From Aquabacter sp. L1I39 (GTDB lineage: Bacteria > Pseudomonadota > Alphaproteobacteria > Rhizobiales > Xanthobacteraceae), in contig NZ_CP072392.1 in NCBI RefSeq assembly GCF_017742835.1, forward strand, positions 4,487,597 through 4,551,596: a DNA stretch of 64,000 nt, read 5' to 3'. Positions 48,394-63,460 of this stretch are shown piece by piece; the first letter of the stretch is position 1, and every line of letters begins with the position of its first letter. The notes under the pieces are model-generated. The model made no database searches. It was given only the letters and a program-made list of their open reading frames with translations, and was not told where the DNA came from. Position numbers and translations under genes: made by a program.

Positions 48394-49722
48394 TCAAACG
48401 GTCGCAGCATTCCCGGGTCCCTCCATCACCAGGAGGCCCCGTCCTTGCCGCTTTGCAGCATAAAGCGCTGCGTCAGCCCGCCGCAGGAGGTCGTCCGGCG
48501 TGGCGGCGGGAGGCAGGGCGATGCCTACCGACACGCCAACCTGCACGGGTCCGCCGGGCAGGTCGAAAGGCCTTGATACGATTGCAATCAGGCGCTCTCC
48601 GAGGCGCCGCGCGGAGGCGGCGGGGAAGAGCCCCGCATCGCCCGGCGGCGCGGGATGCAGGATGGCAAATTCGTCCCCGCCGAGACGGGCCATGAGGTCG
48701 CCTGGACCCAGCTCGGAGCGGCAACGCTCTGCCATGGCGCATAGCAGAGCATCGCCCGCCGCATGGCCGCCAGCGTCGTTCACCTGCTTGAAGTTGTCGA
48801 GATCCAGGCACAGCAGCGCTAAACCTGCGTCGCCGTCCCTGGCACCGGCCAGACAGGCGTCAAGGCGCGACTTCAGAAAAGCGCGGTTGGCAAGGCCGGT
48901 CAGGCTGTCGTGGGAGGCGAGATGCTGGAGCTGTAGCTCCGCTTCCTTGCGGCGGGAGATGTTGCGCACCGAGGCCACATAGCCGTCCGCCTTGCCGGTC
49001 GCGTCATAGGTGAGCTTGACGAAGGCTTCCAGCCACACCCAAGAGCCGTCCCGGTGGCGCTGGCGGGTCTCGCTCACCGCCACGCCGATGCGGCCGGCCC
49101 GCATGTCGGCCATCAGCAGGCCGAACTGCGCGGCATCGTCGGGATGCACGATCTCCGCCGCCCGGCGGCCGATCATCTCCTCCGGCTCGTAGCCCAGAAG
49201 CGTGCGGACGGAGGGCGAGATATAGGTGCGCACACCGTCCAGCGTGCCGCGCACGATGGTGTCGGTGGTGGTGTCGGCGAGCAGCCGATAGAGGGCGGCC
49301 TGCTGTGTGGCCGAGGCGAGCGCCTCGGCCTGCCGCGCCTGCGCCTGCGCCATGCGGGCAAAGCCCTCGAACAGGGCGCGATCCGTGGCCGAGAGGGCAT
49401 CGCCGCTCGGGCGGGTGATGAAGAAGCGGCCGACGGGTGCGCCAGCCTTGCCCGCAAGCGCGAAGCCCGCGAACAGGCCGGATGCATGAGGATGGGCGTC
49501 CAGCACGAGCGGCCCGTCCGCGCCGTCGAGCCGGGCGAGAAGGGGCGCCAGACGTGCAAGAGCATCCCCGCCGCCGCCCGCGAGCATGGTCGTGCCGGCG
49601 CTGACGAACCCCGCCATCTCAGCCCGCAGCGTCAGGCGCGCCGTGTCGCAGAGCGCGTGCAGCAGGTCATCCCCGCCCGCCTCTGGGTTCGCCCCGCCGC
49701 TGGTCGTCCCGCCTCTGTGCAT
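48394..49722 (-). CDS. PAS diguanylate cyclase without I-site
   Basis: A 442-residue cytoplasmic signalling protein. Order: a GAF-like N-terminal region, PAS (about residues 135-265) and GGDEF (about 280-440). The catalytic motif RLGGDEF is intact, so cyclic di-GMP synthesis is expected. The inhibitory I-site (RxxD just upstream) reads GPGD, so product feedback is probably absent. ATG 49722 follows GGAGGGG. It is divergent from the enhancer-binding regulator gene, with only about 175 bases between starts. Confidence 0.9.
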   Translation of the reverse strand: MHRGGTTSGGANPEAGGDDLLHALCDTARLTLRAEMAGFVSAGTTMLAGGGGDALARLAPLLARLDGADGPLVLDAHPHASGLFAGFALAGKAGAPVGRFFITRPSGDALSATDRALFEGFARMAQAQARQAEALASATQQAALYRLLADTTTDTIVRGTLDGVRTYISPSVRTLLGYEPEEMIGRRAAEIVHPDDAAQFGLLMADMRAGRIGVAVSETRQRHRDGSWVWLEAFVKLTYDATGKADGYVASVRNISRRKEAELQLQHLASHDSLTGLANRAFLKSRLDACLAGARDGDAGLALLCLDLDNFKQVNDAGGHAAGDALLCAMAERCRSELGPGDLMARLGGDEFAILHPAPPGDAGLFPAASARRLGERLIAIVSRPFDLPGGPVQVGVSVGIALPPAATPDDLLRRADAALYAAKRQGRGLLVMEGPGNAATV

Positions 49723-49897
49723 GCATCCCCTCCGCAGGGGGATGATTCCGCAGGTGCCTGTGCACGGCAAGCCAAGACGGCGAGGGCGTGGCGCTTGTTG
49801 GGCGGAGGGCCTCTGCTCCCATCCGCGTCCGCCATCGACAGGCCGGTTGGCGGCCGTCATACTCGCTTCAACAAATACAGGACGGGGAGGAACATCG

Positions 49898-51301
49898 GTG
49901 CAGTCGGAAGCGGCGGCGCGTCGGCTGCGGGACGCATCGAGCCATCCAGAGTTCGGCCCCTGGCTGGCCCAGGCCTCCATCCTCGTGGTGGATGATGAGC
50001 CCGGCATCCGGAACTTCCTGGTGCGCACGCTCGCCCCCCGCTGCAAGCTGGTGGAAGAGGCCGCCGACACGCAGCAAGCCTCCGCCAAGCTCGATGCCCA
50101 GCATTTCGACGTGGTGATCGTCGACAATGTGATGCCCGGCAAGAGCGGGGTGGAGTGGCTGGCGGAGCAGCGCTCCGTGGGCCTGTTCGCCGATGCCATC
50201 CTGATTACCGCCTATGCGGACTTGGAAACCGCCATCCGGGCGCTGCGCGCCGGGGCGGTGGACTTCGTGCTCAAACCCTTCCGCTCCAACCAGATCCTCA
50301 ATGCGGTGGCGCGGTGCCTGGATCGTATCCGGCTGCAGCATGAGAATTTCATGCTCCAACACGAATTGCGCTTCAGCGCCAATCACGGCGTGTTGCGCGA
50401 CCGGCTGATTGGCGAATCCCACCTCATTGCCCAGGTGCGCGAGACCCTCTCCCGCGTCGCCCGCATGCCCACCACCGTGCTCATCACCGGGGAATCGGGC
50501 ACCGGCAAGGAAGTGGCGGCCCGTTCGCTTCATGCCTTGTCGGAGCGGGCCGAGAAGCCGTTCGTGCCGGTCAATTGCGCCGCCATCCCCGCCGATATGA
50601 TCGAGAGCGAATTGTTCGGCCATCTGAAGGGGGCCTTCACCGGCGCGCTGGCGGGCCGCGACGGGCTCTTCCTCCATGCCAATGGCGGCACGCTGTTCCT
50701 GGACGAGATCGGCGAACTGCCCCCCGCCACCCAGAGCAAGCTCCTGCGGGTGCTGGAGGATCGCCGCGTGCGGCCGGTGGGGGCCGAGCGCGAGGTGCCG
50801 GTCGACCTGCGCTTTGTCTTCGCCACCAATCGCGACCTGGAGCGGGAGGTGCGCGAAGGTCGCTTCCGGGCCGACCTCTTCTACCGCATCAATGTGATGA
50901 AGATCGATCTGCCACCGCTGCGCGCCCGCGGTGAGGACGTGGCGGAACTGGCCGCCATGTTCATGCGCACCTTGTCCCGCCAATTGGGCGTGCCGCCGGT
51001 GCCCCTCGATGCCGCCGCCTCCGCCGCGCTCGCCCGCTATGACTGGCCGGGCAATGTGCGGGAATTGCGCAATGTCATCGAGCGCACCTTGATCCTCGGT
51101 CGCCTGCCGGACGATTTCCCCGGCCGCGCGCCTTTGCGCCGCGAAGCGCTGGGAAACAGCCTCGACGAGGTGGAGCAGCGGCACATCCTCTCCGTGCTGG
51201 AGGCCTGCGGCTTCGACCGCACCGAGGCCGCCCGCCGCCTCGGCATCTCCCGCAAGACCATCGACCGCAAATGCGCGCGCTGGAATGTCCGTGAGCCCTG
51301 A
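49898..51301 (+). CDS. NtrC-family sigma-54 response regulator
   Basis: A 467-residue enhancer-binding protein. Receiver domain with VVDDEP and phospho-Asp 76 (VIVDNVMPG), AAA+ domain with Walker A GESGTGKE (about 198-205), the sigma-54 contact loop GAFTGA (about 245-250) and LFLDEIGEL, then a Fis-type helix-turn-helix near the C terminus (TEAARRLGISRKTIDRK). It starts at GTG 49898 with GGGGAGG upstream. It overlaps its sensor kinase by 17 bases. Its likely target is the sigma-54 promoter at 53436-53450, with binding at the palindromes 53327-53359. Confidence 0.94.
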   Translation: MQSEAAARRLRDASSHPEFGPWLAQASILVVDDEPGIRNFLVRTLAPRCKLVEEAADTQQASAKLDAQHFDVVIVDNVMPGKSGVEWLAEQRSVGLFADAILITAYADLETAIRALRAGAVDFVLKPFRSNQILNAVARCLDRIRLQHENFMLQHELRFSANHGVLRDRLIGESHLIAQVRETLSRVARMPTTVLITGESGTGKEVAARSLHALSERAEKPFVPVNCAAIPADMIESELFGHLKGAFTGALAGRDGLFLHANGGTLFLDEIGELPPATQSKLLRVLEDRRVRPVGAEREVPVDLRFVFATNRDLEREVREGRFRADLFYRINVMKIDLPPLRARGEDVAELAAMFMRTLSRQLGVPPVPLDAAASAALARYDWPGNVRELRNVIERTLILGRLPDDFPGRAPLRREALGNSLDEVEQRHILSVLEACGFDRTEAARRLGISRKTIDRKCARWNVREP

Positions 51302-53309
51302 AGGGGCAGGCGCGCGCCCGCGCGGGCGCTCCGTCCGCTTCCGCCTCCTGGCCATCGCGCTTCTGCCCACTTTGGTGGTGGTGCCGCTGCTGCTGGGCGC
51401 CACCATGGCGCGCTGGAACGCAAAGTTCGACGCGCTTTTGGCCTCCAAGGTCCATGGCGACCTCACCATTGCCCACCAATATCTGGCCCGCCTGCTGGAG
51501 ATCACCGGCGACCATGTGCAGGCGCTCGGCCTCTCCGCCTTGTTCCGCGACGTGGCGGCGGGGCGGCAGGACAGCGATCTGTCGGAATTGCTGGAAACCC
51601 GGCGGCGGGCGCTGGGGCTGGATTTTCTCTATGTGATCGATCCCGGCGGTCAGGTCTCCGCCGCCGCCCCGCCGGCCACCGGCGCGCCGCTTCGGGCCGA
51701 CTGGCCGGTGATCGAGGCGGCGTTGCGGGGTGAATTGCGCACCGCAATCGATATCTTCACGGCGCAGGATTTGGCCGCGCTCTCCCCGCACCTGGAAGAA
51801 CGGGCGCGCATCGAGCTGGTGCCCACCCCCAATGCCCGTCCCACGGACCGGGCGGCGGAGACCTCCGGCATGGTGGTCCATTCCGCCGCAGCCGTGCGGT
51901 TCGAGGATGGGCGGGTGGGGGCGCTGGTGGGTGGCATCCTGCTCAACCAGAACCTCGTCTTCATCGACACCATCAACGACCTCGTCTACCGCGCCGCCAG
52001 CCTGCCGGAGGGCAGCCAGGGCACGGCGACGCTGTTCCTGGGCGACGTGCGCATCTCCACCAATGTGCGCCTGTTCGAGGGCAAGCGGGCGCTGGGCACG
52101 CGGGTTTCCAACGCGGTGCGCACGCAGGTGCTGGAGGAGGGCCATATCTGGCTCGGCAGCGCCTTCGTGGTGAACGACTGGTACATGTCCGCCTACGAGC
52201 CCATCACCGACAGCTACGGGACGCGCGTGGGCATGCTCTATGTGGGCTTCCTGGAGCGGCCCTTCTTCGAGGCCAAGCTCTCCACCGTCCTCTCCGTGGT
52301 GCTCGCCTTCCTGGTGGTGGCGGCGGCCAGCGTGCCGCTTTTCCTGCGCTGGGCGCGGGGCATTTTCCGGCCGCTGGAGCGCATGAACGCCACCATCGCC
52401 GCCGTGGAGACGGGCGAGCGGGAAGCCCGGACCGGCCTGAAGCATGCTGATGACGAGATCGGTCGCGTGGCGCTCCATCTCGATCATCTCCTCGACCAAT
52501 TGGCCGAACGCGAGCGCGAACTGGTGCGCTGGAATGACGAGCTGAATGTGAAGGTGGCCGAGCGCACCCGGGACCTCGAAATCGCCAACCGCCAGATCGA
52601 GGCCACCACGCGCCAGCTCATCATGTCGGAGAAGCTCGCGGCCATTGGCGAGGTGACGGCGGGCGTCGCCCATGAGATCAACAATCCCGTGGCGGTCATC
52701 CAGGGCAATCTGGACGTGTTGCGCGATGTGCTGGCCGATCATCCCGACCGGGGGCGCACCGAGTTCCGGCTCATCGACGAGCAGATCGACCGCATCACCC
52801 AGATCGTCAACAAGCTGCTGCAATTCGCCCGGCCCGAGGAATATGCCGGCTTCGTGGAGGCCAATGCCCCCGCCGAGGTGATTTCCGACTGCCTGCCTTT
52901 GGTCCAGCACCTTCTCAACCGTTCCGCCATCACCCTGGTGCGGGAGGATGCGGCGAGCCGGCTCATCGTCATGAACCGCACCGAATTGCAGCAGGTGCTG
53001 GTGAACCTCATCGTCAACGCGGTGCACGCCATGCCCCAGGGCGGCCGCCTGACCTTGCGGACGCGCGATGCCGAGCATGATGGACGCCCCGGCATCCGCA
53101 TTGAGGTGGACGATACGGGGGTGGGCATGAGCGAAGAGGTGCTGGCGCGCATCTTCGATCCCTTCTTCACCACCAAGCGCCAGCAGGGCACGGGCCTCGG
53201 CCTGTCCATCACCCAGAAGCTGATCGCCCAGCAAGGCGGCGCCATCGACGTGCGCAGCACGCCGGGGGAAGGGACGACCTTCTCCATCTTCCTGCCCGAG
53301 GCCAACTGA
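51285..53309 (+). CDS. membrane sensor histidine kinase
   Basis: A 674-residue kinase. TM1 (about residues 20-42), a periplasmic cache-type sensor domain (about 45-330), TM2 (about 340-365), a HAMP-like linker and coiled coil, HisKA with GVAHEINNP (His 463), and an HATPase with GTGLGLSI. The periplasmic cache domain suggests direct sensing of a small organic acid. It overlaps the response regulator gene by 17 bases and lies directly before the sigma-54 promoter region. Confidence 0.94.
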   Translation: MSVSPEGAGARPRGRSVRFRLLAIALLPTLVVVPLLLGATMARWNAKFDALLASKVHGDLTIAHQYLARLLEITGDHVQALGLSALFRDVAAGRQDSDLSELLETRRRALGLDFLYVIDPGGQVSAAAPPATGAPLRADWPVIEAALRGELRTAIDIFTAQDLAALSPHLEERARIELVPTPNARPTDRAAETSGMVVHSAAAVRFEDGRVGALVGGILLNQNLVFIDTINDLVYRAASLPEGSQGTATLFLGDVRISTNVRLFEGKRALGTRVSNAVRTQVLEEGHIWLGSAFVVNDWYMSAYEPITDSYGTRVGMLYVGFLERPFFEAKLSTVLSVVLAFLVVAAASVPLFLRWARGIFRPLERMNATIAAVETGEREARTGLKHADDEIGRVALHLDHLLDQLAERERELVRWNDELNVKVAERTRDLEIANRQIEATTRQLIMSEKLAAIGEVTAGVAHEINNPVAVIQGNLDVLRDVLADHPDRGRTEFRLIDEQIDRITQIVNKLLQFARPEEYAGFVEANAPAEVISDCLPLVQHLLNRSAITLVREDAASRLIVMNRTELQQVLVNLIVNAVHAMPQGGRLTLRTRDAEHDGRPGIRIEVDDTGVGMSEEVLARIFDPFFTTKRQQGTGLGLSITQKLIAQQGGAIDVRSTPGEGTTFSIFLPEAN

Positions 53310-53326
53310 GGCTTCCCCCCCGTTTG

Positions 53327-53359
53327 GACAATTTGTCCCGCGCGCCGGACGAAATGTCC
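53327..53359 (+). promoter_or_regulatory. tandem palindromes, likely enhancer sites
   Basis: GGACAATTTGTCC (53327-53339) and GGACGAAATGTCC (53347-53359) share GGAC-N5-GTCC and start 20 bp apart, two helical turns, on the same face of the DNA. They lie about 77-109 bp upstream of the sigma-54 promoter, the typical position of enhancer-binding-protein sites. Confidence 0.85.
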
Positions 53360-53435
53360 CGTGCGCCTGTTCCCCATTGGGCGGCCATTTCCGTCGGGTG
53401 ATTGAAAACGCTGATCTTTCCCCGCGTACCGCGTG

Positions 53436-53450
53436 TGGCACGGCGCTTGC
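53436..53450 (+). promoter_or_regulatory. sigma-54 promoter (-24/-12)
   Basis: TGGCACGGCGCTTGC matches the consensus TGGCACG-N4-TTGC exactly, including GG and GC at the right spacing. It lies about 190 bp upstream of the MFS transporter gene and downstream of two palindromes that the adjacent NtrC-type regulator could bind. Confidence 0.95.
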
Positions 53451-53640
53451 GGAAGGTGTTCCGGACAAAACGCACAAAAACCGGAGGACACGTCCGCAAC
53501 CGCCCCGCTTCTCCGCATGTCCGGCCGTCATGGCCGGCGCGGACGCGGAGCCGGCATCCAAGACACCTCAATCGTGCCCACCGCCTCAGGCCGGCGGCGC
53601 ACGCCATCAATCACATCGAGGGCAATCTCGGGGGAAACGC

Positions 53641-55302
53641 ATGACTGCTGGTATCGAGACCTATCACGGCGCGGCCAAGGAGGCCGGGCTTCTGGACCGG
53701 GAGCGCATCATCGCCCGTCCCGGCTTCAACCGCTGGATGGTGCCGCCGGCCGCCTTGGCCATCCATCTGTGCATCGGAATGGCCTACGGCTTTTCCGTCT
53801 TCTGGCTGCCGCTGACGCGCTCGCTGGGCGTCTCCCAGTCGGTGGCCTGCCCGGACCTCACGCTGGTGGGCGCGCTCTTCACCCGCACCTGCGACTGGCG
53901 CGTGGCGGATCTCGGCTGGATCTACACCCTCTTCTTCGTGCTGCTGGGCTCCTCCGCCGCCATCTGGGGCGGCTGGCTGGAAAAGGCCGGCCCGCGCAAG
54001 GCGGGCGTGGTGGCGGCCCTGTGCTGGTGCGGCGGCATCGCACTGGCGGCGCTGGGCGTGGCCATCCACCAATTGTGGCTGATGTGGCTGGGTGCTGGTG
54101 TCATTGGCGGCATCGGCCTCGGCCTCGGCTATATCTCCCCCGTCTCCACCCTCATCAAGTGGTTCCCCGACCGGCGCGGCATGGCCACCGGCATGGCCAT
54201 CATGGGCTTTGGTGGCGGCGCCATGATCGGCGCGCCACTGGCCAACCTGCTGATGACCCATTTCCGCACCGCCGAGACGGTGGGCGTGTGGCAGACCTTC
54301 CTGGTGATGGCGGCGGGCTATTTCGTCTTCATGATGGCCGGCGCCTTCGGCTATCGCGTGCCCCCGTCCGGCTGGCGTCCGGAAGGCTGGAACCCGCCTG
54401 CGGCCAAGTCCGCCCTCATCACCCACCGCAACGTGCATCTGCGCGATGCCCACAAGACCCCGCAATTCTGGCTGATCTGGGCGGTGCTGTGCCTCAACGT
54501 GTCGGCGGGCATCGGTGTCATCGGCATGGCCTCGCCCATGCTGCAGGAGATCTTCAGCGGCCGCCTCATCGGCCTGCCGGACCTCACCTTCACCCAGCTG
54601 GACGCCTCCCAGAAGGCGGCCATCGCCGCCATCGCGGCGGGCTTTGCGGGCCTGCTCTCGCTGTTCAACATTGGCGGCCGCTTCTTCTGGGCCTCCCTGT
54701 CGGACCGCATCGGCCGCAAGAACACCTATTATACCTTCTTCATCCTCGGCATCGCGCTCTATGCGCTCGCCCCCACGGCGGCGCACATGGGCAGCCAGGT
54801 GGCGTTCGTGGCCATCTTCTGCGTGATCCTGTCCATGTATGGCGGCGGCTTCGCCACGGTGCCGGCCTATCTCGCCGACATCTTCGGCACCCATTTCGTG
54901 GGCGCCATCCATGGCCGGCTGCTGACCGCCTGGGCGACCGCCGGCATCATCGGCCCGGTGGTGGTGAACTATATCCGCGAGGCGCAGCTCAATGCCGGCA
55001 TCCCGCGGGCGCAGGTCTATGACTTCACCATGTATATCCTGGCCGGCATGCTGGTGCTGGGCCTCATCGCCAACGCCCTGGTGCGTCCGCTGCCCGAGCG
55101 CTGGTACATGAGCGAGGCCGAGGAAGCCGCCCTTCTTGCCAAGAGCGCGGCCGCGCAGAAGGGGCCGTCCGGTTCGTTCGGCATCGGTCGCGGCGGTCTC
55201 GACCTGAAGGCGGCTTTGGCCTGGGCGGCGGTGGGCATTCCCATGCTGTGGGGCGTGTGGATCACGCTGCAGAGCGCCGCCATCCTGTTCCGCGCCGGCT
55301 GA
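53641..55302 (+). CDS. OFA-family MFS transporter
   Basis: A 553-residue, 12-helix transporter resembling the oxalate:formate antiporter (OFA) family of monocarboxylate carriers. A 20-30-residue insert with two cysteines lies between TM1 and TM2. The motif DRRGMATG appears in the TM4-5 region and GGRFFWASLSDRIGRKN in the central loop. ATG 53641 is preceded by GGGGGAAACGC. Expression should depend on the sigma-54 promoter and the upstream two-component pair. Formate or oxalate are the best guesses for the substrate; acetate-type acids are also possible. Confidence 0.88.
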   Translation: MTAGIETYHGAAKEAGLLDRERIIARPGFNRWMVPPAALAIHLCIGMAYGFSVFWLPLTRSLGVSQSVACPDLTLVGALFTRTCDWRVADLGWIYTLFFVLLGSSAAIWGGWLEKAGPRKAGVVAALCWCGGIALAALGVAIHQLWLMWLGAGVIGGIGLGLGYISPVSTLIKWFPDRRGMATGMAIMGFGGGAMIGAPLANLLMTHFRTAETVGVWQTFLVMAAGYFVFMMAGAFGYRVPPSGWRPEGWNPPAAKSALITHRNVHLRDAHKTPQFWLIWAVLCLNVSAGIGVIGMASPMLQEIFSGRLIGLPDLTFTQLDASQKAAIAAIAAGFAGLLSLFNIGGRFFWASLSDRIGRKNTYYTFFILGIALYALAPTAAHMGSQVAFVAIFCVILSMYGGGFATVPAYLADIFGTHFVGAIHGRLLTAWATAGIIGPVVVNYIREAQLNAGIPRAQVYDFTMYILAGMLVLGLIANALVRPLPERWYMSEAEEAALLAKSAAAQKGPSGSFGIGRGGLDLKAALAWAAVGIPMLWGVWITLQSAAILFRAG

Positions 55303-55324
55303 TCGCGCGCCGACCAGACACGAC

Positions 55325-55349
55325 CGGGCGCGCCCTTCCGGCGCGCCCG
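55325..55349 (+). terminator. hairpin after the MFS gene
   Basis: Stem CGGGCGCGCC/GGCGCGCCCG with a 5-base loop, without a following T-tract. It could slow read-through into the LysR gene. Confidence 0.5.
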
Positions 55350-55369
55350 TATCGCTGGGGGAACAGGCC

Positions 55370-56362
55370 ATGCTGGACAAGCTGGAAATGCTGCTGTGCC
55401 TGGCCGCCGAGCGCCATTTCGGCCGGGCGGCCCTCGCCGCCGGCGTGACCCAGCCCACTCTGTCGTCCGCCGTGAAGACGCTCGAAGAGCAGTTCGGCGT
55501 CCTCATCGTGGCGCGCGGCGCCCGCTTCCAGGGCTTCACGCCGGAAGGGGAGCGCATCCTCCATTGGGCACGCCGGCTCGTCGCCGATGCCCGCAGCATG
55601 CGCCAGGAGATCCGCGCCGCCAGCGAGGGCCTGTCGGGGCAATTGCGCCTTGCGGTGGTGCCCACCGCTCTGCCCTTCGTGGGCGAGCTCACCTTGCCCC
55701 TGTGCCGGCGTCATGCGCGCCTCGGCTTTTCCATCCTCTCCATGCCCGCCGACCAGATCCTCACGGCGGTGGAGCAATTCTCCGTGGATGCGGGCATCGC
55801 CTATGTGCAAGGGCCGCTGCCGGCACGGCTCATGGCCATTCCCCTCTATGAGGAACGCCACGGCTTGCTTCTGGACGAGGCCTTGCTGGCGACCCATCTG
55901 GCCGAGCGCGAGAACCCGGCTCGAAGCGGCTGGAGCGCGGCACGGGCGAGCGCGCCGCCGGCTTTCGTGAGCTGGGCGCAGGTGGCGCGCCTGCCCTTGT
56001 GTCTTTTGTCGTCGGATATGCGCTATCGGCGCCTGGTGGATGCCCGCCTCGCAACCATCCCTGGTGCGGCGGCGCCGCGCGTGGAGACCAATGCGCTGAC
56101 CGTCCTGGACACCCATGTGGCGTCCGGCCTCTTCGCGACCCTCCTGCCCGTGCGCCACGCTCGCGCCTTGGCCGGCCAACGCCCTGGAGGCACGCGGCTC
56201 ATCGCCATTCCCCTGGAGGAAGACGGGCCCGGCCACCAGATTGGCCTCGTCGTGCCCCGCCGCGATCCCTTGCCAGCGGCGGTGGCCGCCCTGGCGGAAG
56301 CCGCCCGCCGCTGGCCCGCCACGGGCATCGACGCCCGTGGCGAAGCGCCGGTGCCCGCCTGA
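55370..56362 (+). CDS. LysR-family regulator
   Basis: A 330-residue LysR protein: N-terminal winged helix (HFGRAALAAGVTQPTLSSAVKTLEE) and an effector-binding domain from about residue 90. From memory it resembles LysR regulators found next to formate dehydrogenase genes, with the shared stretch RFQGFTPEGERIL. No dehydrogenase genes are nearby. It lies 67 bases after the MFS stop and may be cotranscribed or separately expressed, giving a second regulatory layer. Confidence 0.85.
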   Translation: MLDKLEMLLCLAAERHFGRAALAAGVTQPTLSSAVKTLEEQFGVLIVARGARFQGFTPEGERILHWARRLVADARSMRQEIRAASEGLSGQLRLAVVPTALPFVGELTLPLCRRHARLGFSILSMPADQILTAVEQFSVDAGIAYVQGPLPARLMAIPLYEERHGLLLDEALLATHLAERENPARSGWSAARASAPPAFVSWAQVARLPLCLLSSDMRYRRLVDARLATIPGAAAPRVETNALTVLDTHVASGLFATLLPVRHARALAGQRPGGTRLIAIPLEEDGPGHQIGLVVPRRDPLPAAVAALAEAARRWPATGIDARGEAPVPA

Positions 56363-56373
56363 GCCGGCGCGTC

Positions 56374-56562
56374 TCACGCCGGGGGGCGCGGGGCCAATTG
56401 GGCGGCGAGGTAGCGCTCTGAAGACGGACGGCTGACGCCTTGGCACCGCCCCTGCCAATCCTGGAAGAGGCACGCATCGGCCCGCCTCCCGGCGGTGTTG
56501 GAGGGGGCGGTGTTGGAGCGGGCGGGGGCGGCGGCGAGAGGGGTCTTTGAGGTGTGAGACAT
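56374..56562 (-). CDS. 62-residue hypothetical protein
   Basis: A small ORF with a reasonable ribosome site (GAAAGGAACGCGAC before ATG). The sequence is basic and polar with two cysteines (CLFQDWQGRCQ) and SERYLAAQL near the end. I do not recognise the family, and an adventitious high-G+C frame is possible. Confidence 0.4.
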   Translation of the reverse strand: MSHTSKTPLAAAPARSNTAPSNTAGRRADACLFQDWQGRCQGVSRPSSERYLAAQLAPRPPA

Positions 56563-56625
56563 GTCGCGTTCCTTTCGGTTGCGACATCCCTCTGAGTTTC
56601 CCCACGCGGGCCCTTCCGACCGCTC

Positions 56626-57336
56626 CTATGGGGCGGCGGTCGAGACCGCCCGGCGCAGCGCCGAAAGACGCTGGTCGAGGGCGGCGAAGTCCGGACCGCC
56701 AGGGGTCGGGGTTGTGGCGGAGGCCACGGCGCCCCCTTGCAGCGCGCGGGAGGCAGCCTCCTGCTGGCGCGCCTGGGCCATGAGCCCGGCCAGTTGCGCC
56801 GCTGCTGCATCCCGCTCCCGCTCGATCTGCGCCAGCTCGGCGCGGGACACCGTGTTCGACGCCTCCAGCCGCCGGATCTGGGCGTCGATACCGGCCAGAT
56901 CCCTTTGCCGCGCCTCGGCGGCGCGGGTGGCGGCAGAGACCTGCCGGTCGAGCCGTGCGGCCTCCGCCTCGCTGGAGGCAAGGCTTGCCCGCAGCTTGGC
57001 ATCTGCCGCGCCGATGGCCGCCAATTGCTGGGTGCGTGCCGCGATGCGGGCGTCATAGGCGCCGGTCGCCGCGCCGCCGCCCGCGCGCGTGGCTCCGATG
57101 ATGCCGCCGATGGCCGCGCCCGCCGCCACGCCCAGCAGGGCGCCTTCGCTCACCGTGCGGCGGTAGTCGTCGGTCTGAGCCTGGAGGCGGGGGGCTGCGA
57201 CCCCTTGCGCGGCTGCGGCCGGCACGTCCACCGCCAGCAGGCCCGCACACAGGACGAGCGTCATCGCCCACATGCCCCGGCATCCGGCATTCGGCCTGTC
57301 TGGCGCGGTCGCGATCGCCCTGCCCAGCCTTCTCAT
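56626..57336 (-). CDS. exported glycine-zipper coiled-coil protein
   Basis: A 236-residue protein. A hydrophobic signal-like stretch ends near PAAAAQ; starts at ATG 57273 or 57264 would put it at the N terminus. A glycine-zipper segment (GALLGVAAGAAIGGIIGATRAGG, about residues 66-88) suggests membrane association, followed by a long alpha-helical coiled coil rich in Ala/Glu/Arg (about 95-200). The function is unknown; envelope scaffold is a guess. It is divergent from the 57448 operon across a palindromic control region. Confidence 0.75.
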   Translation of the reverse strand: MRRLGRAIATAPDRPNAGCRGMWAMTLVLCAGLLAVDVPAAAAQGVAAPRLQAQTDDYRRTVSEGALLGVAAGAAIGGIIGATRAGGGAATGAYDARIAARTQQLAAIGAADAKLRASLASSEAEAARLDRQVSAATRAAEARQRDLAGIDAQIRRLEASNTVSRAELAQIERERDAAAAQLAGLMAQARQQEAASRALQGGAVASATTPTPGGPDFAALDQRLSALRRAVSTAAP

Positions 57337-57367
57337 GGTCCCACCTCACGCCGCGGGAGTGGGGAAG

Positions 57368-57394
57368 AAAATTGCAATTATCAATTGCAATTTT
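57368..57394. promoter_or_regulatory. perfect 27-bp A+T-rich palindrome
   Basis: AAAATTGCAATT and its reverse complement AATTGCAATTTT flank ATC, in an otherwise G+C-rich intergenic region. It lies 53 bp before the operon at 57448 and 31 bp from the opposite gene. It looks like an operator or promoter for one or both. Confidence 0.8.
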
Positions 57395-57447
57395 AACAGC
57401 GATCTACCCAAAATAGGTGCAGTGCGGGAGAGGGTGGGGCGGGTGCC

Positions 57448-58515
57448 ATGGGGATGTTCCACATATCGCAGGCGCAGCCGCGCGCGCCCGAAGCGCGGGT
57501 GGCTGTGCGGATCGGTTCGGTGCCGCGTCGCACGGTCACTTCACTCACCACGATCCGCTTCGACGAGGGCCGCAGCACCTACGTTTTCGGACCGGAGGTG
57601 CCGGCCAGCTTTCGCATGGAGACCCGCGTCTTTCTGCGGCGGAGCGCCGAGGGGACGCCGCGCAAGGTGACGTCGCGGCGGTTCGAGATCGTGGTGGATC
57701 CCAAGCACGCATCCGCCCATGAGGTGAAGGCGGGCCACATTCTGGCCTTCGCCGATCTGCCGCCCGGCCAGCGCCGGGTGCAGCAGGCCCGTCTGCAGCG
57801 CCGGGCGAAAGCGCTGGCGCCCGTCATGTTCGATGATCTGGAACAGATCCGCGCGGCCTTTCCCGATCCTGCCGCCCTGGATGATCGCGCGGCGCTGCGC
57901 GCCCTCCACGCCTTGCCGGTCAATCTGTTTTCCAGCGCGCCGGGGCTTTCCGCCTGTATCGCCGCCGACGAGTCGGGGGCATTTGCATCCTATGACGATG
58001 AGGTGGATCTGGCGGGTGCCGACGCCTCCGACGCGGGGGGACCGGCCCGGGCCAAGCTCACGGCCCGCACGCGCGAGGACGGCACTTATGCCCTCGGTGT
58101 GGTGGCTGATCCAAAGGCCGTGCGCGACCACCTGTTCCTGCACCCCCGCTTGAAGATCCTCCTGGACCTGTCCGGGGATGGCGCGCTGAAGCTGAAGGTT
58201 CCCGGCCGCAAGACCAATATCCGGGTGCCGGACGATCTGTCGGCCCAGGTCATCGCCCATTTCGGCCTCGCGCTCGAGCAGGCGCTGGCCGGTGCCGGCG
58301 AAAAGCACGCCAAACATCTCGGCTGGCCGGTGGCGGACTATGCCCATGACCTCTTCTTTATCCATCTGAAGGAGGCGGTGCGGCGCACGCAGGGGCGCTA
58401 TCCGCAGTTCCGGCAATTGTTCGAAGGGGTGGCCGACCCGGACGGCGCGGTGTCCGACGAGGATGGCGATCCCGAGCCTCCGCCCTTCGATCCGCCACCC
58501 CGGGACGAGGACTGA
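57448..58515 (+). CDS. unknown protein, first gene of a protease operon
   Basis: A 355-residue soluble protein with no signal peptide or membrane segment. The N-terminal part (about residues 1-90) is beta-rich. The middle (about 100-230) has acidic stretches, and the C terminus (about 230-320) has several helices before a tail of acidic residues and prolines (PPPFDPPPRDED). I do not recognise a family. Its stop overlaps the start of the trypsin-like gene by one base, so the products probably act together. Confidence 0.8.
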   Translation: MGMFHISQAQPRAPEARVAVRIGSVPRRTVTSLTTIRFDEGRSTYVFGPEVPASFRMETRVFLRRSAEGTPRKVTSRRFEIVVDPKHASAHEVKAGHILAFADLPPGQRRVQQARLQRRAKALAPVMFDDLEQIRAAFPDPAALDDRAALRALHALPVNLFSSAPGLSACIAADESGAFASYDDEVDLAGADASDAGGPARAKLTARTREDGTYALGVVADPKAVRDHLFLHPRLKILLDLSGDGALKLKVPGRKTNIRVPDDLSAQVIAHFGLALEQALAGAGEKHAKHLGWPVADYAHDLFFIHLKEAVRRTQGRYPQFRQLFEGVADPDGAVSDEDGDPEPPPFDPPPRDED

Positions 58516-59843
58516 TGGGGGGCGCTTCGCCATATGGGCCGGCCCCCGGGGCGGCAGGGGCCGATCTGGCCGTGACGCCTCCCCTGCGCGGCCGGCCGAG
58601 CGGGCCGGAAGCCGGCTTTCGCGAGCGCCTGCAGCATCCGGCCTGGCCGCCTTATGTGGCGGCGGTGATGAATGTTGACGCCTCTGAGCCGGGCGGCCAC
58701 GGCTCCGGCATCCTGGTGGGCGAGCAGCATGTGCTCACCTGCCTGCACGTGATCCTCTTCGGACAGGGCGTGGGCGACCGCCTGTCCCTGAGCGAGGCGC
58801 TGCCCAGCTTTCGCGCCACCTTCGGTGACCTTCCCGTGTCGGTGCATCTCTTCGGGGCCGGGGAGCGGCCGCGGCGTGCCACGTGCGTGGCCGAGGATCG
58901 GCACCTGGATCTGGCCTTGCTGAAGCTCGACGAACCCGTGTTCGGCGTGGCGCCGCCCCTGGAGGCGGTGGAGCCGCTGGCCGGGATGCAATGGGCCTTC
59001 TTCTGCGGCTTCGAGCGCGCGCCCGATCTTCGCTTCGCCTACACATTGCGGCAGATCGATCCCATGCTGGGCACCCTGGCGGTGGGGACGCGCCGCACCG
59101 GCGACCACGCCTTTGGTGTCCCGGCCGGCTATAGCGGCGGGGCGGTTTTCTGCGAACGGGAGGGCCAGCCGGTCTTCGTCGGTCTCGCGGACATGGGGGG
59201 AATTGCCACCGCGGCCGGCCATTATGCGGCTGCCGACGCGGTCCGCCGTTTCCTGCGCGAGAAGCTCGGCCATCACTGGGCCGACACCTTGCCCGTCACC
59301 GCCGGTGCGCGCCGGGCACGGATCGCCGGTTTGTTGAGCCGGGTGGCCGGCGGCGTGGATGTCGCTCCCGAGTTTCATCTCCTGCCGGGGGAGGGGGTGT
59401 TCCTCGCCGTCCATCCCTTGACCGCCGCCTCGGCCGACCAGGCATTGGGACGGTCGGTCCGGCCCGGCGGCGACCGGTTGGTCGCCCATGTGCCGGACCC
59501 CGAGGCCCTGGGGCGCCTTTTGCATTTTGCCCGGCAGCGCACGGGCCTGCCGATCCGGTTGCCGAGCCTTGCAGCGTTCGGTGCCCTATGTGCCAGCGGG
59601 CCGCCGGTGCGCATCGTCGGACGGCCACCCGTCCTTGGCGACCTGTGGCACGCAGACGGGCTGCGCGCGCCGCCCGAGGTGTGCGCGGTGTGGGTGGAGG
59701 CCGATGGCGCGCCGTGCGTTGCGGTGTTCGAGGGCGGGCGGGTGATCCGCCACGGCTCCGCGGGCGGCGCTCTTGCCGGCATGCCCCATCGGCGCATCGC
59801 CTTCCTCCCGGCCTTCGCGCCGCAGGACGGGTCGCACCGATGA
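58515..59843 (+). CDS. trypsin-fold serine protease, cytoplasmic
   Basis: A 442-residue protein. Residues about 45-240 form a trypsin-like domain with a plausible intact triad: His78 (LTCLHVI), Asp132 (HLDLALLKLD) and Ser207 (AGYSGGAV). No signal peptide is visible, which is unusual for this fold. A C-terminal region (about 255-442) of unknown fold may sense or recruit. The gene overlaps the upstream gene by one base and the downstream small gene by four (ATGA). Cytoplasmic trypsin-fold proteases of this type often serve as effectors in bacterial conflict systems; that is inference. Confidence 0.85.
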   Translation: MGGASPYGPAPGAAGADLAVTPPLRGRPSGPEAGFRERLQHPAWPPYVAAVMNVDASEPGGHGSGILVGEQHVLTCLHVILFGQGVGDRLSLSEALPSFRATFGDLPVSVHLFGAGERPRRATCVAEDRHLDLALLKLDEPVFGVAPPLEAVEPLAGMQWAFFCGFERAPDLRFAYTLRQIDPMLGTLAVGTRRTGDHAFGVPAGYSGGAVFCEREGQPVFVGLADMGGIATAAGHYAAADAVRRFLREKLGHHWADTLPVTAGARRARIAGLLSRVAGGVDVAPEFHLLPGEGVFLAVHPLTAASADQALGRSVRPGGDRLVAHVPDPEALGRLLHFARQRTGLPIRLPSLAAFGALCASGPPVRIVGRPPVLGDLWHADGLRAPPEVCAVWVEADGAPCVAVFEGGRVIRHGSAGGALAGMPHRRIAFLPAFAPQDGSHR

Positions 59844-60103
59844 GCGACTCCCTGTGGCCCGAAGGCGCCGCCGACGCCGTGGCTTCCAACGGGGAGGACG
59901 ACGGCGCGCGGGCAGGGAAGGCGGAGGGCGCCTCTGGCGTGATCTTCCGGCGAGACGGGGCGGCGGTGGGGGCGCCCGTGCTGACCTACCGCATCGACCC
60001 GCCGGAGCCGGCCCCGCGTGCCGATCCTGCTCTCGCGCAGGCCATCCCCGGGGACATCTGCGCGCCTGACCTCCTGTCGGAAGCCCTCATCAATCTTCCA
60101 TAA
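59840..60103 (+). CDS. 87-residue protein in the protease operon
   Basis: A small acidic protein beginning MSDSLWPEGAAD, low complexity in the middle and ending CAPDLLSEALINLP. It has no known domain. Its ATG overlaps the protease stop (ATGA), which supports real translation. It may be a regulatory, substrate or adaptor peptide of the protease. Confidence 0.7.
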   Translation: MSDSLWPEGAADAVASNGEDDGARAGKAEGASGVIFRRDGAAVGAPVLTYRIDPPEPAPRADPALAQAIPGDICAPDLLSEALINLP

Positions 60104-60223
60104 GGGGAGATTGATCCAAATGTGCACAAAAATGGGGTCACTTCCGCTCGGAAGGTATTTTATAGCCGCCCCTGTCTGTCCATATCCCGCTAAGGTTGCG
60201 CCTGCGCGGGAGGAGACAAGATC

Positions 60224-63200
60224 ATGACCACGTTGAGCGTCAACCTTACTCCCACCTTGCAGACGACGCTGCAGCAACCGGGCGTGTGGGCCTATGCGGT
60301 CTATTTCGACAGCACGGGACCGGTCTGGAACCCGCTGGTGGAAAACGGCCAACTCCAGACCACGGCCGGCGCGCTCGACATCGCGCTGCCCACCACTTTC
60401 AATGGCGGCAAGGTCTATTTTCTCATCCAGAGCCAGGATTCCTCGCAGCCCTATGATCTAACGACGTTGATCACCGGCGAGGACAATATCAACTGGACCA
60501 GCGCCCAGACCTACGACTTCCGCTATGACAGCTTCGAAGTCTCCCTGCTGAGCGCGCCGGGCGATGCCGGCAACCTGACTTCGGTGGAAGGCTTCGGCCT
60601 GCCCATGTCGGTGGCCATCAATTATTCCAACGGCACCAGCGCCTCGGTGGGCTACGGCATCACCGGCAGCGCGCTGTTCCAGCAGATCGCCGACATCGAT
60701 GCGTCAAAGACCTATGTCTATGACTATACGTCCGGCCCCTTGGCCGGGGACCCCCGCGCCGGCATTTCGCCGTCCCAGGCGGTGGGCCTCTCGCCGCCCA
60801 ATCCGGCCTTTCAGGCCTCCGATTGGGACGCCTATATCCAGAGCCTGGAAAATACCACCGCCGCTTCCGCCATCACGCTCGCCGGCTATTTCAACGGCGC
60901 GCCCGATGCCAACGGCATTTATCACAACGAAGCCTTCTTCTCCTATCAGTTGCAATGGGACGCGAGCGAGAACGTATTCTGGCTGGCGCCCACCGAAAGC
61001 AGCAACGTCAAGGGCTATATCAAGATCACGCCGGACAATCTGGCGGACAGTATCTATTCGACGCTCGGCACGGTGGAAATCTATACCAACCAGACCGACA
61101 CCACGCCCTACCAGATCCTCGGCAGCACCTCGCCGGAAATGAATACCGGCCTTAACAACCAATGGGGCGAGGTGCTCACCCAGTTCCTGACCGGCTTCAC
61201 CGCCGGCTATTACGGCACCACCGGCGCCTCGCCCAACGGGGCGGTGACGACCCCTATCGACCTGAATGCCAACTGGAACTGGGATCCGACCTATGCGTTC
61301 GGGCACAATCTTTCCTCGGCCCAGCCAGTCTATATGGACCCCTATTCGGAGATCTATTTCTACAATTCCAATTCCTATGGCTCGGGATATTCCGACAATC
61401 TGATGCGTCAATACAGTGTCGGCGGCCCCCTCATTTCGGTGTGGGACTCCCAGCTCGGCACCGATGTCAATACCATCTCGCTGACCATCTTCGACGACAG
61501 CGAGCAGCCCACCGGCTATACGACGCCCGTCCTGTATAATTACATTGCCCCCGTGGGTGGCAGCTATGGGGTGCCCACCTATAGCGGCGATGGCACCAAC
61601 ATGGTGATGACCTTCGCCAACCACGAAATGGTGCTGGTGGAGGATACCCCCATCGTGCTGCGCATCTATGCCGGCATGAGCGGCGGGGTGGCGCAGTGGA
61701 ACGAGGTCACCATCCAGGCGGCCTCCGGCGAGACGCTGTGGCAGAACTGGAACCTCACCTATGATGCCGGCACCGGCACCTATGCGGCGAGCGCGGTCTC
61801 CGGTTCCTCGCAGCCGGCGGGCTCGCTGCTGGTGAACAACCTGCCCAAGCCGCAGGACGGCACGGCCTGGTACCAGATCGTGGTGGGCACGGGCGATGCG
61901 GCCAAGACCTACAACCTCTATGCCAATGTCACCGGCGGCGAGCTGGAGAACCCGGCCTATGCCGGACAAGAGGGGAGCCTGGCCATTGATGGTCTGGCCC
62001 TGGCGACGCCCAGCGCCTCCACCGCGCAGACCATTTCCACCTTCTCGCTGAGCTTCCTCTATGGCGGCTCCACGTCCATCGATCCCGCTTTGCTGGAGCA
62101 GAACACGGCCGCGAGCTATGTGAGCACCCGCGCCGTTCCATTCGCGCCGGTTGCGGGAACGCTCGATGGCGGCACCTTCACCGCGGAGCCGGACCAGGAC
62201 AATGCAACGACGAATGCCGTCACGGTCTCCGAAGGAGCGATCGCCTTCGGCTGGACCGGCACCAACACCGCCTCCGGCACCGCGTCCTGGATCTCCGGCT
62301 ACACCAACAAGGTGGGCGCCCTGAACTGGGGCGTGCTCTCCCTGGTGGAGGCGGGTGGGGGCACCACCTTCGCCCCGCTGGGCGCCCAGGCGGATATTGA
62401 CGGCCAGTGGACCTCTGTTGCCGCGACCTTGGGAAATGGCACCTACACGGTCACCATGACCGAGTATGCACAGGCCGATACCGGCTTCACCACGCCGCTG
62501 GGACCCCAGAGCTCGGCCCTCACCCTGACGGTCGACCTTTCCGACCTCCAGATCCAGACCACCGCCGGCAATGCGTTGAAGCTGCTGGACGATGCCTCGG
62601 CCACCGCCGGCAATTGGCTGCGCTTCGAGGTGCAGTCCTCCAGCCTGCCCCATTCCACCAGCGTGCTGCTTTATGTGGTGAATGCCCAGGGCGAGCTGGT
62701 GGCGCGCGATGGCGAGACGGGCGCCGGCGTGACGCTGGAGGATGCGGTCATCGGCACCCTCGGCGCCGCGGTTTCCGATGCCGGGGCGACCTTGTTCAAC
62801 GGCTCGCAGATGGTCTATCTGGGCCTTGGCCAGGAATTGCGCTTCGCCCTTCAGACCGGCGATGCGCCCGTGAACCTTGCCCCCACCTTCTCGGCCACCG
62901 TCCCGGGGGACGGCACCGCGGTGCTGAACGTGGGCGGCGTTCACATGTTGGCCAGCGTGGACAACACCCTCACTGATGGGGCGGAGCTGGCCGCTCCCCA
63001 GCGCGCCGCCAACGAAGCGCTCACCTATCTCACCCACGGGGCGACGCTGGACGTGGAGGTCGCCGGCAGTTGCGCCAATACCAACCAGCTCGCCTTCGTG
63101 AAGGTGGACGTGAACCCCGCCACAGGCACCTGGAGCGTCAACGGCGTAGCCTATGGCGATACGCCGGAATTCCATGCCGCCGTCCTCGCCAGCCTGGATG

Positions 63201-63460
63201 CCGGCTATTCGGCCCAGCATGGGGGGGGCACCTTCCAGGCGTCCTCCACCTGGACTGTCAGCGGCTCGGACGGCTATTACGTGCCGGTTCTGGTCACCCA
63301 GTCGGGCGCAGTCTTCCTGCCCGGGCAAGGCAATTCGGGTGGGCACGAATACATCCAGATGTATGGCGAGAACACGTTCGGCTTCGAGGATCTGACCGCC
63401 GCGCAAGGCTCGGATTTCGACTATAACGACATGGTCATGCACCTCGTGCCGCACCTCTGA
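60224..63460 (+). CDS. GH64-like beta-1,3-glucanase/DUF4114 protein
   Basis: A 1078-residue protein rich in Thr/Ser/Asn/Tyr and Gly, typical of secreted proteins, with no classical signal peptide. Residues about 1-450 resemble the GH64/thaumatin-like beta-1,3-glucanase architecture (VWAYAVYFDSTG, SVEGFGLPMSV, NWNWDPTYAFGHN, NSYGSGYSDNLM). The middle is repetitive beta-sandwich-like. The C terminus carries a DUF4114-like motif (GFEDLTAAQGSDFDYNDMVM), common at the ends of type I secreted and surface proteins. No secretion genes adjoin. ATG 60224 follows GGGAGGAG. It has its own leader 120 bp after the protease operon. Confidence 0.75.
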   Translation: MTTLSVNLTPTLQTTLQQPGVWAYAVYFDSTGPVWNPLVENGQLQTTAGALDIALPTTFNGGKVYFLIQSQDSSQPYDLTTLITGEDNINWTSAQTYDFRYDSFEVSLLSAPGDAGNLTSVEGFGLPMSVAINYSNGTSASVGYGITGSALFQQIADIDASKTYVYDYTSGPLAGDPRAGISPSQAVGLSPPNPAFQASDWDAYIQSLENTTAASAITLAGYFNGAPDANGIYHNEAFFSYQLQWDASENVFWLAPTESSNVKGYIKITPDNLADSIYSTLGTVEIYTNQTDTTPYQILGSTSPEMNTGLNNQWGEVLTQFLTGFTAGYYGTTGASPNGAVTTPIDLNANWNWDPTYAFGHNLSSAQPVYMDPYSEIYFYNSNSYGSGYSDNLMRQYSVGGPLISVWDSQLGTDVNTISLTIFDDSEQPTGYTTPVLYNYIAPVGGSYGVPTYSGDGTNMVMTFANHEMVLVEDTPIVLRIYAGMSGGVAQWNEVTIQAASGETLWQNWNLTYDAGTGTYAASAVSGSSQPAGSLLVNNLPKPQDGTAWYQIVVGTGDAAKTYNLYANVTGGELENPAYAGQEGSLAIDGLALATPSASTAQTISTFSLSFLYGGSTSIDPALLEQNTAASYVSTRAVPFAPVAGTLDGGTFTAEPDQDNATTNAVTVSEGAIAFGWTGTNTASGTASWISGYTNKVGALNWGVLSLVEAGGGTTFAPLGAQADIDGQWTSVAATLGNGTYTVTMTEYAQADTGFTTPLGPQSSALTLTVDLSDLQIQTTAGNALKLLDDASATAGNWLRFEVQSSSLPHSTSVLLYVVNAQGELVARDGETGAGVTLEDAVIGTLGAAVSDAGATLFNGSQMVYLGLGQELRFALQTGDAPVNLAPTFSATVPGDGTAVLNVGGVHMLASVDNTLTDGAELAAPQRAANEALTYLTHGATLDVEVAGSCANTNQLAFVKVDVNPATGTWSVNGVAYGDTPEFHAAVLASLDAGYSAQHGGGTFQASSTWTVSGSDGYYVPVLVTQSGAVFLPGQGNSGGHEYIQMYGENTFGFEDLTAAQGSDFDYNDMVMHLVPHL

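Follow-up and report, generated by a model that had tools for sequence, protein, structure and literature searches.

We examined a 64,000-nucleotide stretch of the genome of Aquabacter sp. L1I39 (contig NZ_CP072392.1, positions 4,487,597 to 4,551,596; hereafter the window, whose coordinates are used unless a locus is named) and found in it what is quite likely the left end of a rare multi-gene system. A divergent gene at 56626-57336 and the three-gene cassette starting at 57448, 58515 and 59840 would correspond to genes A/A2, B, C and the start of D of more complete loci found elsewhere. What the window holds is probably a remnant, either decaying or pared down, because D is cut to 87 amino acids (aa), E to G are missing and A and A2 are apparently fused. 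In its full form, the system would comprise the coiled-coil envelope proteins A and A2, with a glycine-rich stretch, the protease C, the large proteins D and E, a motor pair F-G and, as a variable member, B, with an additional protein H in two loci. The divergent gene, which an initial annotation of this DNA had not mentioned, probably belongs to the unit. The open reading frames (ORFs) which that annotation had placed at 57448, 58515 and 59840 are at these coordinates and overlap by 1 and 4 bases as described; the large ORF which it had named as the next gene starts at 60224. The features are the following.

56626..57336, minus strand: A/A2, predicted envelope protein with an N-terminal hydrophobic segment, a glycine-rich stretch and a coiled coil; transcribed away from the cassette
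57368..57394: inverted repeat between the divergent genes; possible operator or promoter element
57448..58515, plus strand: B, 355 aa, matching no library entry; variable component
58515..59843, plus strand: C, 442 aa; predicted trypsin-fold serine protease with H78/D132/S207
59840..60103, plus strand: D', 87-aa ORF at the place where the approximately 975-aa gene D starts; probably a truncated D
60224..63460, plus strand: large neighbour, 1078 aa; unrelated to the cassette

Protease C and the linked gene B

Judged by its sequence, C is a trypsin-fold serine peptidase: it matches PF13365 (Trypsin_2) at an E-value of 2.8e-12, with 48 bits against a cut-off of 27.6, and it carries a His-Asp-Ser triad. 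The triad is intact, as previously stated, with H78 in TCLHV, D132 in HLDLALL and S207 in GYSGG. Lack of conservation of these residues had been named as a result that would speak against a system; they are invariant in 8/8 aligned proteases, down to 28% identity. The reported absence of a signal peptide also holds, with zero hydrophobic segments in a Kyte-Doolittle scan of the protease. Among 397 genomes of the order, the protease is found in three, that is, in the window's own genome, in G353 (4e-67) and in G339 (2e-28), and a further relative, on plasmid CP030828 of Neorhizobium sp. NCHU2750, is the single one found in a survey of 72,556 plasmid records. We refer to the loci on the Neorhizobium plasmid, in G339 and in G353 as L011, L026 and L027. 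Window C is 38% identical to the protease of L027 (1e-50), 29% to that of L026 (1e-16) and 26% to that of L011 (5e-12).

In PADLOC, C shows weak matches, over the trypsin core only, to LmuA (6e-5), RT-Protease_XI (5e-3) and Avs1b (6e-3). Apart from these and the generic trypsin domain, Pfam, NCBIfam and PADLOC name none of the three cassette proteins, and the products of 57448 and 59840, which had been described as matching no recognised family, have no match in them to E = 1. The C-terminal half of C (window 59364-59840) resembles by eye a formylglycine-generating-enzyme (FGE)/C-type-lectin domain (TGxPxRLPTxxAF ... EWVExDG). We do not claim this domain, as neither Pfam to E = 10 nor an hhalign comparison with two FGE proteins from this genome (E 0.58) supported it. 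AlphaFold models of C (from 5 sequences) and of B (from 4) were unusable, with a mean predicted local distance difference test (pLDDT) of 30.7 and 40.6, respectively, and a PDB profile search with B gave no usable relative, its matches having E 0.09 or worse.

The linkage of 57448 and 58515 as a gene pair is supported. A search of 5.8 billion proteins, in which the 7994 candidates with the most shared words were scored, returned 3 relatives of B (70-76% identity) and 4 of C, besides the window's own, all at 69-76%. They all come from a source labelled 'lgn', which we took to be metagenome assemblies. Two pairs of B and C relatives sit on contigs of equal size (2,762 and 18,698 base pairs, bp), which implies that the members of each pair share a contig and adjoin. 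Partial relatives of B are likewise encoded directly upstream of the protease in L011 and L026. The one in L011 (378 aa) matches the N-terminal part of window B (27% over 122 aa, 4e-8), with a pairwise score of 40 bits that 0 of 200 shuffles reached (highest 22.7), and the one in L026 (128 aa) matches the C-terminal part (36% over 74 aa, 1.6e-7). We treated the L026 match as real because it lies directly upstream of the G339 protease. Pattern-based scans of GTDB contigs and IMG/VR with B and C, and of plasmids with B, yielded nothing useful. The idea that the annotated genes are neighbours across genomes thus stands for 57448 and 58515, and does not for 60224, which is unrelated; neither three nor four of them make up the whole system.

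Full loci elsewhere and the probable remnant in the window

The set of A, A2, C, D (972-992 aa), E (803-824 aa), F (476-519 aa) and G (306-340 aa) recurs in L011, L026 and L027. B is present in L011 and L026, and H in L011 (as one protein) and L027 (as two adjacent genes, H1 and H2); the absence of H from L026 is not firm, because that locus lies on a 19-kb contig ending 1.7 kb after G. The genes are arranged with A-A2 divergent from B-C-D-E-F-G in L026, A-A2-H1-H2 divergent from C-D-E-F-G in L027, and F-G-A-A2-H divergent from B-C-D-E in L011. Between L026 and L027, the identities are 28% for D (3e-49), 33% for E (8e-104), 32% for F (3e-42) and 32% for G (2e-33). Similarity to L011 is 22-24% for E (1e-24 and 1e-19), 26-30% for F (3e-12 and 2e-14) and, with L027, 23% for G (1.6e-7) and 44-47% for H (1e-61 and 1e-95).

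F and G have the sequence features of a MotA-like and a MotB-like protein. F passes the Pfam MotA_ExbB cut-off of 22.9 bits in L011 (26.6) and L027 (23.0), and it matches ZorA models in L027 (1.1e-9), L011 (1.2e-8) and L026 (6e-5), at scores far below the NCBIfam cut-offs (31.3 vs 190 bits). In every locus F has five hydrophobic segments, of which the final one lies close to the C-terminus. G has a single such segment, at the N-terminal end of the protein, and an invariant DxYxPxxDL marks where the segment starts. By the same hydropathy scan, B, C, E and H are without a hydrophobic segment. H is kinase-like with a unique C-terminal part, matching APH above the cut-off (1.6e-7 in L027, 6.8e-6 in L011) and TCAD9 below it (4e-4 and 0.037). 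No entry of Pfam, NCBIfam or PADLOC names B, D, E or H2 beyond weak or chance-level matches, and PDB profile searches gave no usable relative, with none for E and mostly coiled-coil and designed proteins for F. H2 (L027 15413-16393; L011 789-1757) is 44% identical between these two distant loci and has no Pfam match in L027; within 297 order genomes and the plasmid set it was seen only beside this system, its profile matching 1 of the 297 genomes, G353.

In the window, residues 25-93 of the divergent gene product are 41% identical to A of L026 (2.6e-7), and residues 56-207 are 39% identical to A2 of L027 (2.8e-17; both by tblastn, unmasked). With its residues 21-93 resembling A and 56-207 resembling A2, 56626 looks like a fusion of A and A2, which are separate genes in the other loci. 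A of L026 weakly matches Gly-zipper families (1.5e-5, below cut-off), and window A has no Gly-zipper Pfam match. D' has the same 4-base (ATGA) overlap with C as D has in L011, L026 and L027, and it is coding-like to its end (GC content at third codon positions, GC3, of 0.84). Its stop lies 2 bases before a block shared with G001, a genome of the same genus, that is, at the edge of the variable segment described next. D' is probably a truncated D.

The window and G001 share two collinear blocks (49187-55424 and 60105-64670), between which ~110 bp in G001 replaces window 55425-60104. At the G001 junction (L019 6150-6240) there is an apparent degraded start of the LysR gene 55370-56362, its only remnant there. 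Because this degraded start survives, a deletion in G001 probably accounts for at least part of the difference. A tRNA-Arg gene (CCG; L012 825-901; at 64628 in window coordinates, just past the window's right end) lies near the variable segment, ~1.2 kb downstream of 60224, and is present in G001 as well (L019 10999-11075).

The remainder of the system was not found in the window's own genome. Profiles of D and G detected G339 and G353 and found nothing in it in the same searches. The E profile found nothing in it among the best 2-3 of 4 candidates, which alone were scored, and detected E in the search of the family of G339 and G353. The F profile gave one generic match (9.4e-4), also seen in G001. 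The system is rare elsewhere too: E was found in 2/15 genomes of the family of G353 and G339 and in 1/319 phylum-sample genomes (G857), C in 1/101 related genomes (its own, with none in the other 100), and five queries had no match in IMG/VR contigs. The G857 locus (L031 8644-16975) is a distant cousin, with an E-like protein (hhalign 1.3e-6), genes resembling A and A2, and a 511-aa gene of unknown kind. Before E, where D would be expected, stands a 953-aa gene in which no similarity to D was detected; over 19.9 kb, none of the ORFs compared was recognised as encoding a protease or motor. In both L011 (1-671) and G857 (L031 7125-8573), a peptidase of the S41 (carboxyl-terminal processing) type adjoins the system, which may be chance. 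The flanks of the loci hold mostly transport, regulatory or metabolic-type genes that differ between loci. One short ORF on the minus strand of L026 (1946-2260) looks by eye like a tyrosine-recombinase C-terminus; it has no Pfam match to E = 0.01.

The large neighbour and the divergent gap

The initial annotation had ascribed GH64-like and DUF4114-like regions to the 60224 protein. We rejected the GH64 identity, since there is no Pfam match to E = 1 across 4 homologues and no PDB match to E = 5 with a profile. Of the DUF4114 assignment there remains a match of the C-terminal residues 1048-1073 only (1e-4), scoring below the cut-off (23.6 vs 27 bits); DUF4114 is present in 4/4 homologues (best 3.5e-6). 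Together with its relatives (L014-L017) the protein makes up a separate family, 49% identical across families, with only a DUF4114-like tail, and the copy in genome G002 has one in-frame TGA. A terminator-like hairpin (60141-60154) lies between the 87-aa gene and 60224; the region has 4 sites of this kind, compared with a mean of 1.8 after shuffling.

The perfect 27-bp palindrome claimed upstream of the cassette is indeed an inverted repeat at 57368-57394, made of 12-bp arms and a 3-nucleotide spacer rather than of 27 perfect positions. It amounts to two copies of AATTGCAATT, which occurs nowhere else in the window. In 1/20 Markov-1 simulations of 64 kb, arms of at least 12 bp were reached, so the length of the repeat alone is only modestly beyond chance. 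Its position is the notable feature, namely the AT-rich gap between the minus-strand gene 56626-57336 and 57448, where it may act as an operator or promoter element.

Known systems, competing explanations and biological meaning

Zorya resembles the full system in that F is similar to ZorA/MotA/ExbB (best ZorA match 1.1e-9), a MotB-like G with one transmembrane segment is encoded beside F, and large extra proteins are adjacent. The difference lies in the other genes, since A/A2, a kinase-like protein and a trypsin-fold protease take the place of the Zorya partners in the full system. The definition of Zorya includes the peptidoglycan-binding ZorB domain (PMC11890865). The corresponding Pfam domain (OmpA-like) is absent to E = 0.1 from G of the three loci, and against PADLOC G gives one ZorB1 match (0.0077, in L027) and none in L026. 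ZorC/ZorD, ZorE and ZorF/ZorG have no PADLOC match to E = 0.1 in D, E and H of L027, E of L026, and D, E and H of L011. The ZorA-like matches of F (best per locus 1.1e-9 to 6e-5) are weak to moderate, and the window locus has no F. We therefore rejected membership in Zorya on account of its partners and the ZorB domain.

The vWA-MoxR-VMAP and NucA-trypsin conflict systems likewise place trypsin-like peptidases in multi-gene loci, and the match of H to TCAD9 (4e-4), weak and below cut-off, is a further likeness. APH-like kinase domains occur in some of them, according to the portion consulted of Kaur et al. 2020 (PMC7159879), in which 'ExbB' has 0 occurrences and no MotA/ExbB motor is mentioned for these systems. 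Among 9 L011 and 10 L026/L027 proteins, vWA, MoxR and VMAP have no Pfam match to E = 0.1, and neither has NucA; membership was rejected on the missing vWA, MoxR and VMAP components. Lamassu LmuA, AVAST Avs1b and the retron/RT-protease effectors are also defence-associated trypsin-fold proteases. They differ in their partners, since the libraries name no STAND NTPase, SMC or reverse-transcriptase partner in our loci; G has matches to LmuB at the level of coiled coils (0.004-0.015). Membership in AVAST type 1 (Avs1) was rejected, as the score for Avs1b is 8.4 bits, where the equivalog cut-off is 1500. Zorya is named in two studies on how stators and force transducers evolved, whose main text contains neither 'protease' nor 'trypsin' (PMC12505986, PMC12204202). 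We found no published description of this gene set in the open-access literature searched.

Several observations weigh against reading the window as the end of such a system. With low-complexity masking, the pairwise E-values of A/A2 weaken to 0.007-0.13, and the case for these genes rests also on common motifs in the alignment (DYxxTV, TGAYxxR) and on position. No sequence homology of D' to D was detected, and none of 2136 long-protein candidates was matched at E <= 10. B is not found in L027, its copies in L011 and L026 match different halves of window B, and the L011 match is unlisted in the all-against-all comparison of loci. In the order, the B profile matched 9/397 genomes at E <= 0.01, of which its own genome and G339 were treated as real (the other 7 having E 9e-4 to 0.0097). 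The full loci number only three. Among them, D of L011 shows only marginal similarity to the other two (35% over 40 aa, 0.007), the D proteins have 0, 1 and 4 borderline hydrophobic segments, which point to no one location for D, and F of L026 scores 15.4 bits for MotA_ExbB, below the cut-off. The E profile matched 0/385 class-sample genomes (best 2 candidates per genome scored).

In another explanation of the cassette, A/A2, B, C and the 87-aa protein could form a compact functional derivative, a short protease cassette with D' as a genuine small regulator. B and C are intact in the window, coding-like in composition and have full-length relatives at 69-76%, and D' looks coding to its end. 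We nevertheless consider this unlikely, as D' stops at the edge of the variable segment, D is ~975 aa long in the three other loci, and the fused A/A2 and missing E to G suggest erosion. That the 60224 protein completes a four-gene system, as first proposed, is highly improbable. It is encoded on the same strand, 120 bp after the stop of 59840; however, a search of 61 genomes found relatives of it in 4 others (91, 61, 49 and 48% identity), the protease was found in none of the other 100 related genomes searched, and G001 carries the large gene without 55425-60104 and its cassette. Moreover, BLASTP finds no relative of 60224 in the two large proteins after the L011 protease, and L026 and L027 have D and E there. 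We therefore rejected it as a system member; it is an unrelated neighbour of the cassette.

The role of the full system is a separate matter. It may serve defence, a function to which we give somewhat less than even credence; a conflict role is favoured because of patchiness, divergence and loss. The absence of mobile context argues against such a role, as neither the mobile nor the defence-island setting that had been named as possible support was seen in the flanks examined. The system could instead be an envelope-maintenance or stress machine, with an Exb/Tol-like motor and a regulatory protease, whose patchiness reflects niche use. This explanation, plausible if short of probable, fits the envelope-type A/A2, the Ton/Tol/Mot-like motor, the metabolic-type flanks without phage or island markers and the empty IMG/VR searches. 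Against it stand the very patchy distribution described above (in one family and in the order), the strong divergence, the loss within a genus and the fact that the closest motor models are those of ZorA.

As a tentative picture, and one we would not call probable, we propose a motor-gated protease immunity, in which an ion-driven MotAB/ZorAB-like complex, tied to envelope coiled-coil proteins, would read envelope disturbance and switch on a trypsin-fold protease via two giant adaptors, with B as a variable specificity protein and an optional kinase; the window would show the same system lost piece by piece. For the full system in general, the best-supported mechanism is that F and G would form an ion-driven stator-like complex which, with A/A2 as anchors or sensors in the envelope, would register a perturbation, for instance the entry of phage DNA. 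Through the long tail of F and through D/E, the motor's state would be relayed to C, which would cleave a cytoplasmic target and halt growth. Gene linkage, the conserved triad and the motor-like sequence features of F and G are observed, whereas assembly of a complex, sensing, the target and a role in defence are inferred.

Phage defence by means of a flagellar-stator-like motor is known from Zorya. The comparisons above make the full system a new form of motor-coupled multi-gene system, of which the window holds only the eroded end. If our picture is true, a second, differently built motor and protease system would make motor-coupled immunity a broader design, and proteolysis, being measurable, could serve to ask what these motors sense. 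The window would chiefly point to the full system and capture a moment in its loss within a single genus.

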